This document shows, in pieces, positions 41,211 through 46,498 of a stretch of DNA of 64,000 nt. The notes under the pieces are model-generated. The model saw nothing but the letters and a program-made list of their open reading frames with translations, had not been told where the DNA came from and did no database searches. The position numbers were made by a program, and so were the translations under genes. The stretch lies in NCBI GenBank assembly GCA_029552745.1, contig JAKPDK010000042.1:1-64000 (forward strand). Reading direction: 5' to 3'. The stretch's first letter is position 1. Every line of letters starts with the position of its first letter. This stretch comes from Candidatus Hydrogenedentota bacterium. Its GTDB lineage: Bacteria > Hydrogenedentota > Hydrogenedentia > Hydrogenedentales > SLHB01.

Positions 41211-41266
41211 TATGGTAGCATCTTGCTACTCTTTTAACATTCAATAGTAGCATTTATGCTACCATA
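41211..41266. promoter_or_regulatory. Paired palindromic operator sites upstream of the ORP cluster
   Basis: GTAGCA-TCT-TGCTAC at 41215-41229 and GTAGCA-TTTA-TGCTAC at 41247-41262 have the same half-sites. Their centres are about 32 bases apart, near three helical turns. The outer parts TATGGTAGCAT (41211-41221) and ATGCTACCATA (41256-41266) also form a perfect 11-base inverted repeat. They lie 115 bases before the first gene of the cluster and look like a dimer-binding operator pair. Confidence 0.6.
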
Positions 41267-41379
41267 ACTCTTGAGTGTCATGCCGAGTTTATCTTTTTAA
41301 ACCGTTGTATGACAATGTCTTACGTCTATTTACTTCCCACTTCCTCATATAGGCATAGTAATTGCATCCCTGGTAAGGT

Positions 41380-42045
41380 ATGAAAGAGATGATGAATTTG
41401 AGAGTTGCGTTCTCGCATTGGAACAACCGCATTGCGCCGGTCTTTGATGTGGCACCCCAAGTGAGGATCATCGATGTCGAGAACGGACAAGTCGCACACG
41501 AACAAGAAGAATCATTGGCTGGCGTACTGCCACTCCAAAAGGCGTTGCGGCTTAAGGAACTAGGCGTCAACACGCTTGTCTGCGGCGCAATTTCGCGGCC
41601 GCTATATGCGATTCTTGTTGGCTATGGGATCCACGTGATCCCCTTTGTGGCAGGCAACCTGGAAGAGGTAATCAACGCATGGCTCTCAGGCCAGATTGAG
41701 AACGTTGTGTTCGCCATGCCGGGATGTTGCGGTCAACGCCGCCGTCACGGTTGGCGATTGCAAACTAACTATTGGGAGGAACCCGTAATGTTTGGAAAAG
41801 GACGAGGTGGATCGGGAAAAGGCGGCGGATTGAGCCAGGGACAAGGTCAAGGCCGAGGACAAGGTCAAGGACAGGGCCAGGGGCAAGGCGGTCGTGGACG
41901 CGGCCGTATGGGCGGGCCACAAGCGGGAGGTCCCGGCGGTATGTGCCTGTGTCCCAACTGCGGCCATACGGAACCGCACGAACGCGGTGTCCCATGCGCG
42001 GAGCGCAAATGCCCAAAGTGTGGGACTGCCATGACAAGGCAATAA
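41380..42045 (+). CDS. NifX/ORP-like metal-cluster protein with Gly/Gln-rich linker and zinc ribbon
   Basis: 221 residues. Residues 1-115 are a dinitrogenase iron-molybdenum cofactor (NifX/ORP, COG1433) domain: [19 protein letters not shown] and [21 protein letters not shown] Gly/Gln/Arg tract follows, [20 protein letters not shown], then a four-cysteine ribbon, [18 protein letters not shown] with AERKCPKCG. The N-domain may bind a molybdenum or iron-sulfur cluster, as orange protein does. Possible starts are ATG 41380, 41389 or 41392; no strong ribosome site decides. First gene of the cluster, followed after 37 bases by DUF5320. Confidence 0.8.
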
Positions 42046-42082
42046 CAGACAACCAGTTGGATTTAGAAAGGAGGTGACGACG

Positions 42083-42475
42083 ATGCCCAGAGGAGATGGA
42101 ACAGGACCCATGGGAATGGGGCCAATGACCGGACGCGCAGCTGGATACTGCGCTGGGTTTGGAGTGCCCGGATACGCGAATCCCATTCCCGGTCGTGGTT
42201 TTGGGATGGGGTTCCGAGGAGGCCGTGCTGCCTATGGCCGTGGTTTCGGCGGTGGCGGACGCGGATGGCGGCACTGGTTCTACGCTACCGGTCTGCCCGG
42301 CTGGATCCGCTTCGGCGCTGGCATTCCAGCCTTCGGATACGCGAGCCCCTACGGGAACCTCAACCCAGAGGTAGAGAAGCAAGCGCTCAAAAACCAAGCC
42401 GACGTTTTGCAGTCGGAGTTGGACGCAATCAAGAAACGTTTGAGCGAGCTTGAAACAAGTTCTACGGCGGAGTGA
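42083..42475 (+). CDS. DUF5320 family protein
   Basis: 130 residues. The N-terminus MPRGDGTGPMGMGPMTGRAA followed by GYCAGFGVPGYANP is the DUF5320 signature; a Gly/Arg/aromatic middle follows and a coiled-coil C-terminus (LKNQADVLQSELDAIKKRLSE). The ATG has a perfect AGGAGGT site seven bases upstream. DUF5320 proteins of this kind often sit next to NifX/ORP-like genes; their function is not established, and the Gly-rich part may bind or dock the cluster proteins. The single Cys could be a metal or cluster contact. Confidence 0.85.
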   Translation: MPRGDGTGPMGMGPMTGRAAGYCAGFGVPGYANPIPGRGFGMGFRGGRAAYGRGFGGGGRGWRHWFYATGLPGWIRFGAGIPAFGYASPYGNLNPEVEKQALKNQADVLQSELDAIKKRLSELETSSTAE

Positions 42476-42575: not shown

Positions 42576-42938
42576 ATGAAGATAGCTTTTACAACATCGG
42601 GAAGCGATATCAACGCTCCACTGGACGATCGTTTCGGTCGGGCGGCCAAGTTTCTCGTTTATGATCTGGACAGAAATACTTTCGAGGTATTCGACAACCA
42701 ACAAAACTTGAACGCGGCTCAAGGAGCTGGGATTCAATCGGCAGAAGCCGTGGTTCGTCTGGGAGCGCAGGCGATCGTGACCGCTCATTGTGGGCCTAAA
42801 GCATTTCGAGTTCTTTCAGCAGCTGGTGTCAAAGTCTATAACACCAACGCACGCACAGTGGCCGAGGCCCTTGACCTCTACCGACAAGGGAAGCTAACCG
42901 AGGCCGAATCAGCGGATGTTGAAAGTCATTGGGCATGA
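42576..42938 (+). CDS. NifX/ORP-like dinitrogenase iron-molybdenum cofactor domain protein
   Basis: A 120-residue single domain of COG1433: MKIAFTTSGSDINAPLDDRF, GRAAKFLVYDLD, then GAGIQSAEAVVRLGAQAIVT and a C-terminal NARTVAEALDLYRQGKL. In orange protein and NifX relatives this fold carries a molybdenum-copper or iron-molybdenum cluster precursor without a covalent Cys ligand. AAGGAAAAAAG precedes the ATG. Second of three such proteins in the cluster; the three differ in length and tails, so they may be non-equivalent carriers. Confidence 0.92.
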   Translation: MKIAFTTSGSDINAPLDDRFGRAAKFLVYDLDRNTFEVFDNQQNLNAAQGAGIQSAEAVVRLGAQAIVTAHCGPKAFRVLSAAGVKVYNTNARTVAEALDLYRQGKLTEAESADVESHWA

Positions 42939-43221
42939 GTGAACCGGTCGTCACCAACAGGTTCATCAGTATGATTTACAGCGAAGATTTCGCCACGCGG
43001 GTGGTACCTCTTCAACTGATTTGTGGCAAAACCCGTACAAATCGTGGAAGGACATCTCTGCGGTTTGCGGAAGACTTAAACAAGCTATGTTGGTTCTTGG
43101 GCACCCATTTGACCTATCTATTCCGAGAGTTGGATGCGAGGAATGTTTTTTTCAGGTTGCCGAGCAACGTAACGGCATCGAGCTAAGTTCATCCAAACGA
43201 GTGTTAGAAAGGAACAGAACA
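42939..43221 (+). other. Gap inside the ORP cluster
   Basis: 280 bases before the DUF302 gene. The DUF302 frame stays open upstream to 43021 but the extension (MWQNPYKSWKDISAV...) is unlike any family I know and lacks a ribosome site. No terminator is seen. Confidence 0.4.
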
Positions 43222-43767
43222 ATGGAAAAAACGACACACGAGGAAAACCCAACTAACAAATGTGGGAACGACCAACAACAAGTAAAGATGAACCGATTAT
43301 CGTTTTTTCTATACGGACTCGTCGTTGGAGCACTACTTGTGGGGATTATGGGCTGGCTATCGATGCCAAGTATGATGCTCAAGATACATCAGAGCAAATA
43401 TGACAGCGTTGATGAAACCTGCGCACAACTCAAAGCCGCCATCGAAGCCAATGGATGGCAATGTCCCGCAATCCGGAATCTGAATGAGGCGACAGCGAAG
43501 CAAGGTGTCAAGATAGACAAACAGGTGAGAATTGTAGAACTGTGCAAAGCTGAGTACGCCAAAGAGATTCTTGAGACTAATCCGGAAGTTTCTACCCTAA
43601 TGCCTTGCGCATGGGGTGTTTATGAAGGGAAAGATGGTAAGGTCTACATATCCGCGATGAATACAAGGCTTATGGGAAAGATGTTCGGTGGAAATATCGC
43701 CAAAGTTATGGGAAGAGCGGTTTCAAAAGATGAAGAGCAAATGCTTAAGGACATTATTCAACAATAA
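43222..43767 (+). CDS. Membrane-anchored DUF302 protein
   Basis: ATG 43222 with AAAGGAAC upstream gives 181 residues. A transmembrane segment (FFLYGLVVGALLVGIMGWL) at about 28-46 is followed by the DUF302 domain: YDSVDETCAQLKAAIEANGW, VRIVELCKAEYAKEIL, LMPCAWGVYEGKDGKVYIS and the end segment FGGNIAKVMGRAVSKDEEQM. DUF302 is a small alpha/beta fold seen in redox and thiosulfate-related settings, with Cys residues near the pocket; here C62, C70, about C97 and C116 could matter. Its membrane anchor may place it at the cytoplasmic membrane. It overlaps the next ORF start by one base. Confidence 0.85.
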   Translation: MEKTTHEENPTNKCGNDQQQVKMNRLSFFLYGLVVGALLVGIMGWLSMPSMMLKIHQSKYDSVDETCAQLKAAIEANGWQCPAIRNLNEATAKQGVKIDKQVRIVELCKAEYAKEILETNPEVSTLMPCAWGVYEGKDGKVYISAMNTRLMGKMFGGNIAKVMGRAVSKDEEQMLKDIIQQ

Positions 43768-44051
43768 TGCTACCTGAAGCATTCCTGGGCGGTATCTTTT
43801 TAACAAGCCGCTACACCGGACGCACGCCGCTATCGTTCCCTGCGCTGGTGGGATTGGCGTTCCGCGAGGGTAGTCTGCCCGATTTTGAAAGGTTGGACAT
43901 CCTGAAGAGCGTACCGCTTTTTATTATTAAACCTTGTATGGCAAGAGTTGAGTTTATCGGGACCACGGGCGAAGACGCGCGGGATCTGCTCCATGCAAAG
44001 ACCATAAGGAGACAGGGAAGACGAAACTACATTACCGGAGGCATCCTATGA
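43767..44051 (+). CDS. Small coupled ORF, unknown (94 aa)
   Basis: Not recognised. The frame begins with TAATG overlap to the DUF302 stop and ends in an ATGA overlap with the MinD-like gene, the pattern expected of a translated gene in an operon. The product has SFPALVGLAFREGSLPDF and a basic C-terminus (IRRQGRRNYITGGIL), without cysteines except one. The GGAGG for the next gene lies inside its end. The evidence for translation is positional only; a chance open frame remains possible. Confidence 0.45.
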   Translation: MLPEAFLGGIFLTSRYTGRTPLSFPALVGLAFREGSLPDFERLDILKSVPLFIIKPCMARVEFIGTTGEDARDLLHAKTIRRQGRRNYITGGIL

Positions 44052-44899
44052 TTCTCGCAATTGCGTCAGGTAAAGGCGGAACCGGAAAGACCACAATTTC
44101 AGTTAACTTGGCACAAATGTTTGGCGGCGGCGTGCAGCTGCTCGACTGTGATGTGGAAGAGCCGAACGACCATTTGTTTCTGAAAGGCAAGAGGGTCAGA
44201 GAAGAAACCATCACAAGGAACGTTCCGAAGGTGGACAACGCGCTTTGTGACGGATGTGGCGAATGTGCACGGTTTTGCGTTTACAACGCCATCGCATGTA
44301 TCAACAAAAAACCGTTAGTTTTTGCCGAAATGTGCCATAGTTGCGGTGGCTGCGCAAAAGTTTGCCCCCAAGATGCCATTCGCGAAGTGCCCAATCGGAT
44401 TGGGGTCATCGAAACCATTCAGTCAGGACCTATTACGCTGATTCAAGGGCGTTTAGATATCGGGCAGTCTATGGCACCGCCCCTTATCCGTGCGGTGAGG
44501 GCACGAGGAAACAATGGCGTCCCGGTCATCGTGGACGCACCGCCCGGGACATCATGTCCGGTGATTGCGGCCGTTCGGGATACGGATTTTGTCCTTCTGG
44601 TGACGGAACCTACGCCGTTCGGCCTAAACGATCTGCAGTTAGCCGTTGGGATGGTTCGGGAGCTCGGGATACCGTTCGGTGTTGTGGTCAATCGTGCGGG
44701 AATCGGCGACGACCGAATACATGAGTTCTGTCACCAAGAAAAGATTCCCCTTCTTTTGGAGGTTCCTGATGACCGACGGATCGCAGAGGCGTACTCCAGA
44801 GGAAGTTTGATCGTGGATGCCCTGCCAGAATACCGAGGGCTTTTTCAGACTTTGTTTGAGAAAGTTACGAACTTTCAGCGTGTCGCGCAACACCAATAG
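44048..44899 (+). CDS. MinD-superfamily ATPase with inserted ferredoxin domain, first copy
   Basis: 283 residues (COG1149). The deviant Walker A is SGKGGTGKTT at 7-16, with the signature Lys of ParA/MinD proteins. Between the Walker A and the second ATPase half is a bacterial ferredoxin with two [4Fe-4S] motifs: C67, C70, C73, C77 (CDGCGECARFC) and C96, C99, C102, C106 (CHSCGGCAKVC). The later VIVDAPPGTSCPV is the Walker B-like segment. Such ATPases may load or move metal clusters onto ORP/NifX proteins. GGAGG six bases before the ATG. Confidence 0.93.
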   Translation: MILAIASGKGGTGKTTISVNLAQMFGGGVQLLDCDVEEPNDHLFLKGKRVREETITRNVPKVDNALCDGCGECARFCVYNAIACINKKPLVFAEMCHSCGGCAKVCPQDAIREVPNRIGVIETIQSGPITLIQGRLDIGQSMAPPLIRAVRARGNNGVPVIVDAPPGTSCPVIAAVRDTDFVLLVTEPTPFGLNDLQLAVGMVRELGIPFGVVVNRAGIGDDRIHEFCHQEKIPLLLEVPDDRRIAEAYSRGSLIVDALPEYRGLFQTLFEKVTNFQRVAQHQ

Positions 44900-45188: not shown

Positions 45189-46061
45189 ATGAAGGAACTT
45201 GTAATCATTAGCGGTAAAGGTGGCACAGGAAAGACCAGCGTATCAGCTGCATTTGCCGTATTGGCTAATCATCCGGTTATTGCGGATTGCGACGTAGACG
45301 CCGCCGACTTGCACCTCGTATTCGCGCCGAAGATCGTCGAGCGCCACGAATTCCGCGCCGGCTATGAAGCGGAAATCGACCCTACAAAGTGCTGGGGTTG
45401 CGGCGCATGTTACAGACATTGCCGTTTTGACGCCGTTAGAGAAGAAAATGGCAGCACAAATATAACGACATACCGCATCGATCCGTTCGCCTGTGAAGGG
45501 TGCGGGGTATGTGTTCGGTTCTGCCCTGCACAGGCTATTGATTTTCAAGAAAGAAGTTGTGGCGAGTGGTTTGTTTCTGAAACAAGGTGTGGTCCAATGG
45601 TGCATGCGCGACTCGGGATTGCTGCCGAGAACTCCGGCAAACTGGTGTCGGTGGTTCGGCGCGAGGCACGTCGGATTCTGGAAAAAACAGGCCGTTCCCT
45701 GCTTCTCGTGGATGGGCCACCGGGAATAGGTTGCCCGGTTATCGCCTCAGTTACGGGCGCATCTCTGGTACTCGTTGTCGCGGAGCCGACCGTTTCAGGT
45801 GAGCACGACATAAAACGGGTTTTCTCGTTGACGCGCCATTTTCGAGTTTCCGCCGCAGTGTGTGTAAACAAGTGGGACTTGAACCCGCAGATAGCGGAAC
45901 GTATCGAGCATGCAAGCCGCCAGCTAGGCGCCCAGGTTGTAAGCCGAATACGCTACGACCCAGCTGTGACCGCAGCCCAGATTGAGGGGAAGACTGTCAT
46001 AGAAACAGACGCACCCTGCGCAGAAGATATAAAACGACTTTGGCAGGAACTAGGGATGTGA
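45189..46061 (+). CDS. MinD-superfamily ATPase with inserted ferredoxin domain, second copy
   Basis: 290 residues, paralogous to the gene at 44048. Walker A SGKGGTGKTS at 8-17; ferredoxin cysteines C68, C71, C74, C78 (CWGCGACYRHC) and C102, C105, C108, C112 (CEGCGVCVRFC); VDGPPGIGCPV as the Walker B-like segment. The two copies are the usual pair in orange-protein operons, where they probably heterodimerise. The ATG is preceded by AAGAGAG. About 100 bases later comes the third ORP-like gene, so the cluster is continuous. Confidence 0.93.
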   Translation: MKELVIISGKGGTGKTSVSAAFAVLANHPVIADCDVDAADLHLVFAPKIVERHEFRAGYEAEIDPTKCWGCGACYRHCRFDAVREENGSTNITTYRIDPFACEGCGVCVRFCPAQAIDFQERSCGEWFVSETRCGPMVHARLGIAAENSGKLVSVVRREARRILEKTGRSLLLVDGPPGIGCPVIASVTGASLVLVVAEPTVSGEHDIKRVFSLTRHFRVSAAVCVNKWDLNPQIAERIEHASRQLGAQVVSRIRYDPAVTAAQIEGKTVIETDAPCAEDIKRLWQELGM

Positions 46062-46159
46062 CTCAAAATCATGACCCTGCAAAAAGGTGAATGACTGTCT
46101 GTCTCCTGCATAGGAAACTAAGGAAGTTGTTGGAGTCGTTCAAAAAGGAGGATGAAGTT

Positions 46160-46498
46160 ATGAAGATTGCTATTCCCTTGTCTGAAGGACGTCTATCGAT
46201 GCACTTCGGCCACTGCGAGCAGTTTGCCATCGTCGAGGTAGACCCCGAGCGGAAACAGGTTTTGAGTAGACAGGACGAGCCCAGCCCGCCGCATCAGCCC
46301 GGCCTCTTGCCGGAGTGGCTTGCAGCACGCGGCGTCGATGTGGTCATCGCAGGGGGTATGGGCACCCGCGCCCAATCACTGTTCGCCGCTCATGGAATCG
46401 AGGTCAGGGTGGGTGCACCCAGCGAGACTCCGGAGAAATTGGCTGCGGCGTATATCGCAGGCACCCTGCAGCAAGGCGATAACTTTTGTGCCCATTGA
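46160..46498 (+). CDS. Short NifX/ORP-like protein with C-terminal Cys-His
   Basis: ATG 46160 with AAGGAGG upstream gives 112 residues. The domain is compact: MKIAIPLSEGRLSMHFGHCE, QFAIVEVD and a C-terminal DNFCAH. HFGHC and the end Cys-His are typical of the HxxHC-bearing subgroup of COG1433 proteins. The pocket would bind an iron-sulfur or molybdenum cluster. Last gene of the cluster, closed by the hairpin at 46510-46552. Confidence 0.92.
   Translation: MKIAIPLSEGRLSMHFGHCEQFAIVEVDPERKQVLSRQDEPSPPHQPGLLPEWLAARGVDVVIAGGMGTRAQSLFAAHGIEVRVGAPSETPEKLAAAYIAGTLQQGDNFCAH

Follow-up and report, generated by a model that had tools for sequence, protein, structure and literature searches.

Tandem palindromes upstream of an ORP/NifX–MinD gene cluster as a predicted sigma54 enhancer read by a putative trans-encoded activator

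The window (the whole 64-kb stretch of DNA analysed) carried a cluster of ORP-type genes, preceded by a predicted sigma54 promoter and, further upstream, by a pair of palindromes forming a predicted UAS (enhancer). The features were as follows:

41211 to 41266, no strand assigned: whole tandem UAS (predicted), bounded by an 11-bp outer inverted repeat
41215 to 41229, no strand assigned: predicted UAS site 1 (distal), GTAGCA-TCT-TGCTAC, a perfect 6+6 palindrome around a spacer of 3 bp, matching the distal palindrome of relatives in position
41247 to 41262, no strand assigned: predicted UAS site 2 (proximal), GTAGCA-TTTA-TGCTAC, with an N4 spacer and its spacing kept in relatives
41351 to 41366, + strand: predicted sigma54 -24/-12 promoter AGGCATAGTAATTGCA, with GG at 41352 to 41353 and GC at 41364 to 41365 (GG-N10-GC), 9/12 consensus
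41380 to 42045, + strand: first cluster gene, NifX/ORP-like (PF02579)
42074 to 42475, + strand: DUF5320 protein (PF17253, E 1.5e-27)
42576 to 42938, + strand: NifX-like protein 2 (PF02579)
43222 to 43767, + strand: DUF302 protein (PF03625), with its likely start at 43222 inside ORF 43021 to 43767
44048 to 44899, + strand: MinD-type ATPase 1, with two 4Fe-4S motifs
45189 to 46061, + strand: MinD-type ATPase 2, with two 4Fe-4S motifs
46091 to 46498, + strand: NifX/ORP-like protein 3, similar to the C-terminal ORP domain of MrpORP (NF041136, E 6.3e-38, below the family cut-off)

The true start of the first gene was probably ATG 41389 or 41392, since 41380 nearly coincided with the predicted transcription start (near 41377); the first NifX proteins of relatives began with MK-V/I-A at the corresponding point. 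A DUF302 gene inside an ORP cluster was found in only one other of the compared clusters (G005, L046:8643-9134), and a small ORF lay between the DUF302 gene and the MinD-type ATPase genes of the window cluster. The cluster contained both ORP/NifX and MinD-like genes, the targets that characterize DVU2106-type systems (see below).

The two palindromes, with site 1 reading TATGGTAGCATCTTGCTAC and site 2 reading GTAGCATTTATGCTACCATA, were present as the original prediction had described them: they lay 32 bp apart start-to-start and 32.5 bp centre-to-centre and were enclosed by a perfect 11-bp outer inverted repeat (arms 41211 to 41221 and 41256 to 41266), which arose because the two palindromes were alike. 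Each exact site occurred once in the 64-kb window, and the genome scan that had been proposed for GTAGCA-N3/4-TGCTAC, widened to N2 to N5, gave no copies beyond these two in the whole genome (4,355,843 bp). When the 64-kb window was scanned for GTNGCA-N3/4-TGCNAC pairs located 31 to 35 bp apart, ignoring half-site position 3, the twin sites scored 20/20, their own one-base-shifted reading 16/20, and the next best pair 15/20; when the promoter region was dinucleotide-shuffled 100 times, the twin-site score was never equalled.

The original prediction had seen no sigma54 -24/-12 motif, and this did not hold: two perfect palindromes stood upstream of AGGCATAGTAATTGCA, which matched the consensus moderately (9 of 12 bases, the first being A in place of T), kept GG and GC correctly spaced, and began 89 bp past the UAS end, at a distance conserved in relatives (74 to 101 bp). 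Nine equally good matches were present on the + strand of the 64-kb window, about one per 7 kb; because such matches are frequent, the element alone would be weak evidence, and its position and conservation carry the weight. In the window, the stretch from UAS to promoter gave no match to the IHF consensus WATCARNNNNTTR (at most 1 mismatch); L043 had a match, and L039, L041, and L045 had near-matches. The presence of rpoN in the window genome was implied only through the dozen or so GAFTGA-type activators found there.

The sequence comparison was applied to 68 genomes of the same order, with the presence of the cluster defined by a homologue of MinD-type ATPase 1; this gave 21 genomes, 20 of them other than the window genome and carrying homologues 45 to 68% identical. 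The homologous NifX/DUF5320/MinD (ORP) clusters of relatives had the same gene order and the same promoter layout: many of them displayed tandem 16-bp palindromes with half-site GTCGCA, located 31 to 33 bp apart before the first nifX, followed 74 to 101 bp further on by a -24/-12 element, usually TGGCAC/T-N6-TGCT, and then by nifX. Site 1 had a spacer of 3 bp versus 4 bp in nearly all relatives, and its half-sites were thus shifted by one base. The tandem layout and the spacing of about 32 bp were therefore kept upstream of homologous clusters, in agreement with the operator architecture first proposed for the window. The exact GTAGCA sequence was not kept in close homologues, because base 3 of the half-site had changed together with a helix of the activator (see below), and so the expectation of the same sites upstream of homologues stood for the layout and failed for the letters. 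Nor did exact GTAGCA sites occur widely, an outcome that the original prediction had named as speaking against it: 4 stray single sites were found in the 67 other genomes of the order.

The original prediction had rightly observed that no regulator gene stood next to the window cluster. In most relatives, an activator gene with PAS, Sigma54_activat, and HTH_8 domains was located directly upstream of the cluster, and in many it ended just before or inside the UAS. An activator homologue (E <= 1e-150) was present in 20/21 genomes with the cluster versus 5/47 without it (Fisher p about 1e-11); the lone exception, G026, had the cluster and no activator match at this threshold, with a truncated activator ORF near its cluster. 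In the window genome, the orthologue was encoded elsewhere:

C102:330429-331832: orthologous activator of 468 aa, with PAS, Sigma54_activat, and HTH_8 domains and a GAFTGA loop

This cognate AAA+ activator was 63% identical to the activator of the relative used as query, the next activator in the genome being 45% identical, and it scored below every NCBIfam equivalog cut-off shown. Among the activators recovered from the window genome, it alone had the helix HKTTLFR. Cluster and activator lay on different long contigs (325 and 615 kb, respectively) and would thus be unlinked, a location that depends on the binning and assembly of a draft genome of 188 contigs. The PAS domain of the activator had conserved cysteines in a C-x3-C-like arrangement, a feature that suits a redox or metal signal; our guess would be that the domain senses a redox, metal, or iron-sulfur signal. 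Autoregulation of the C102 activator in cis was considered and rejected, there being no site near its gene. Downstream of this gene, L079:7364-9629 contained peroxiredoxin, TrmO-like, and metallo-beta-lactamase-fold genes (Pfam).

The activator of G033 was the nearest relative of that of the window (70% identical) and also had HKTTLFR. No clear twin site was found before the G033 cluster, where the best pair was at shuffle level (p 0.51). A long GC-rich inverted repeat with arms GACAAGGC and GCCTTGTC was inserted between the activator end and the nifX start in this locus (L036), and it may have displaced the activator sites.

As an independent check of the match between the GTAGCA half-site and the activator of the window genome, twin GTAGCA sites were sought in 84,980 GTDB species genomes, which gave 7 stretches. 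One of them, in a Candidatus Krumholzibacteriia MAG, was flanked on one side by an activator with IHKTTLFR and on the other by an ORP cluster carrying TGGCACGGGACATGC. This MAG contained four GTAGCA sites in total, namely the twin pair, a site preceding another nifX cluster, and a site preceding the gene of its second ORP-type activator (MHKTTLYR); the last was a single palindrome (L178:1501-1516) placed directly before the gene, which suggests that the second activator is autoregulated, like DVU2106. Further activators were obtained from 80 genomes of the phylum of this MAG, mostly encoded immediately upstream of nifX genes, and the palindrome spacing in this second phylum was 32 to 35 bp. 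The other six matches had no NifX/MinD or activator context in their ORFs (judged by eye from ORF starts). Tandem TAGCA-type palindromes without ORP link were present in Deltaproteobacteria/Myxococcales (L165:2553, L171:1929, L167:1285, and L169:4779); those of L165 and L171 were located where an AAA ATPase gene begins (PRKVGKTSLLL, PRRYGKTSLLLEA), and the palindromes of this group may be operators of another system. In a gammaproteobacterial MAG (L168:1869-1918), twin GTAGCA palindromes were located upstream of an enoyl-CoA-hydratase-like ORF, with a sigma54-like TGGCAACTCACCTGCA nearby.

The comparison was also applied to the activator helix and the third base of the half-site, with site pairs chosen by a score that ignored half-site position 3. 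Three pairings were seen across the two phyla, i.e., HKSTLFR with GTCGCA (the usual one among relatives in the order), KTTLF/Y with GTAGCA, and TTLW with GTTGCA: base 3 was C in 48/60 half-sites for Ser helices, A in 19/24 for Thr+Phe helices and in 3/4 for Thr+Tyr helices, and T in 45/52 for Thr+Trp helices. The GTAGCA sites of the window and the HKTTLFR helix of C102 belonged to the same pairing class. Near-identical loci and the borderline locus L157 were left out of the permutation set, in which 99 of 116 half-sites agreed with helix class; 0 of 100,000 label permutations were as good, and for TTF/Y versus TTW alone 1 of 19,448 exact permutations reached the observed agreement, values that are not formal probabilities as the loci are related. 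In an activator tree computed with the HTH omitted, Thr+Phe/Tyr proteins occupied at least four separate positions, one of them nested within Thr+Trp, with support of 0.83 to 1.0 at the nodes checked. The varying residues lie in what we take to be the recognition helix of the general Fis/NtrC fold. On balance, we favour the view that ORP activators follow a recognition code in the helix H-K-[S/T]-T-L-[F/Y/W]-R, with Ser specifying GTCGCA, Thr+Phe/Tyr GTAGCA, and Thr+Trp GTTGCA, that regulator and operator have co-evolved in at least two phyla, and that the code can find a relocated regulator, as in the window. Of the results obtained, this covariation between two residues of the helix and a single base of the operator is more interesting than the operators themselves, and with its help operators could be predicted in this family from the sequence of the activator.

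The twin palindromes are thus very probably the UAS of a sigma54 promoter driving the ORP/NifX–MinD cluster, read by the trans-encoded C102 activator. From the sites, their spacing, the promoter element, the activator orthologue, and the helix/half-site covariation, all read from sequence, we infer the signal suggested above and, for activator binding, looping, and activation, the following scheme: (i) each palindrome would be bound by one dimer of the activator, a one-component PAS-AAA+-HTH protein, through its Fis-type HTH, (ii) two dimers, with three helical turns between them and on the same side of the DNA, would build an AAA+ ring, (iii) a DNA loop of about 90 bp would bring this ring to sigma54-RNA polymerase at 41351 to 41366, and (iv) the ring would spend ATP to open the promoter. 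On the evidence at hand, the sites are genuine operators, of a type already known, whose regulator has moved away. In this way, a predicted regulator and a predicted promoter can be assigned to an iron-sulfur gene cluster of an uncultured lineage that is associated with anaerobes and as yet poorly understood.

Three other explanations were weighed. A different regulator, i.e., a TetR-, MarR-, ArsR-, or Rrf2-type repressor working at a sigma70 promoter, is unlikely: palindromes of such length suit many dimeric regulators and the activator gene is not adjacent in the window, but many relatives had the same tandem layout with a sigma54 promoter and an activator gene next to it, the varying half-site base tracked the activator helix, and a search of the + strand from the palindromes to the first gene gave no sigma70-like site; a DUF134 HTH protein, tried as a candidate regulator, was absent from the window genome. 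That the 56-bp unit acts as a nucleic-acid structure, either a DNA cruciform or a leader-RNA hairpin, is less probable still. As RNA, the region folded well (z -3.66), and its outer inverted repeat was perfect over 11 bp, yet any pair of like palindromes would give such a fold, and transcription was predicted to start about 115 bp downstream of the unit. In relatives, the single palindromes, their spacing, and the promoter distance were all kept, whereas the extension of the outer repeat beyond GT, 4 bp in the window, was 0 to 4 bp and most often 0; the cruciform suggested in the original prediction therefore found no comparative support. An RNA element was also searched for in Rfam and gave no match at gathering score, the top match, of the hairpin to an miRNA, staying below threshold. 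Chance, or a repeat element without regulatory role, is the least credible of the three and is already contradicted by conservation: unrelated tandem TAGCA-type repeats did occur in some other genomes (L165, L167, L169, and L171), but the window sites were the only copies in their genome, 0 of 100 shuffles were as good, and position and spacing were conserved across genera and in a second phylum.

The reading of the palindromes as a UAS served by the C102 activator was finally compared with known systems. In Desulfovibrio vulgaris Hildenborough, the divergent orp1/orp2 operons are controlled by DVU2106, sigma54, and IHF (PMC3897727; PMC4641369), where the activator sites are palindromes located at -131 and -88 with respect to the two promoters (PMC3897727). 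The original prediction had implied a contrast between the window and the Desulfovibrio orp operons, and this contrast disappears because a sigma54 element is present here; the layout fits the DVU2106/sigma54 scheme, and the enhancer mechanism proposed above has an experimental precedent in these operons. Likened by layout and genes, the window and the DVU2106 system shared ORP-type NifX and MinD-like genes, a one-component sigma54 activator, palindromic sites, and -24/-12 promoters, but they differed in four respects: (i) the window had one unidirectional operon with tandem palindromes and one promoter, while the DVU2106 system had two divergent operons with one site each; (ii) the window activator was unlinked, while DVU2106-type systems have the activator gene within the orp locus; (iii) the window gene set included DUF5320 and DUF302, unlike the D. 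vulgaris orp operons; and (iv) no IHF site was detected in the window, while DVU2106-type systems have one between UAS and promoter. The clusters of the order and of the Krumholzibacteriia phylum (L036-L052, L146-L156, L166, and L179-L201) shared with the window the same genes, tandem palindromes located 31 to 35 bp apart, the sigma54 element, and the activator family; they differed in that the activator was directly upstream in most of them and that base 3 of the half-site was mostly C or T, and A where the helix was KTTLF/Y. Sigma54-controlled orp regulation would occur, beyond Desulfovibrio, in at least two other phyla. Enhancers of the NtrC family (NtrC and NifA) resembled the window in having a Fis-type HTH and dimer sites that stand in pairs ahead of a -24/-12 promoter, with the difference that NtrC is a response regulator, whereas the C102 activator is of the PAS one-component type.
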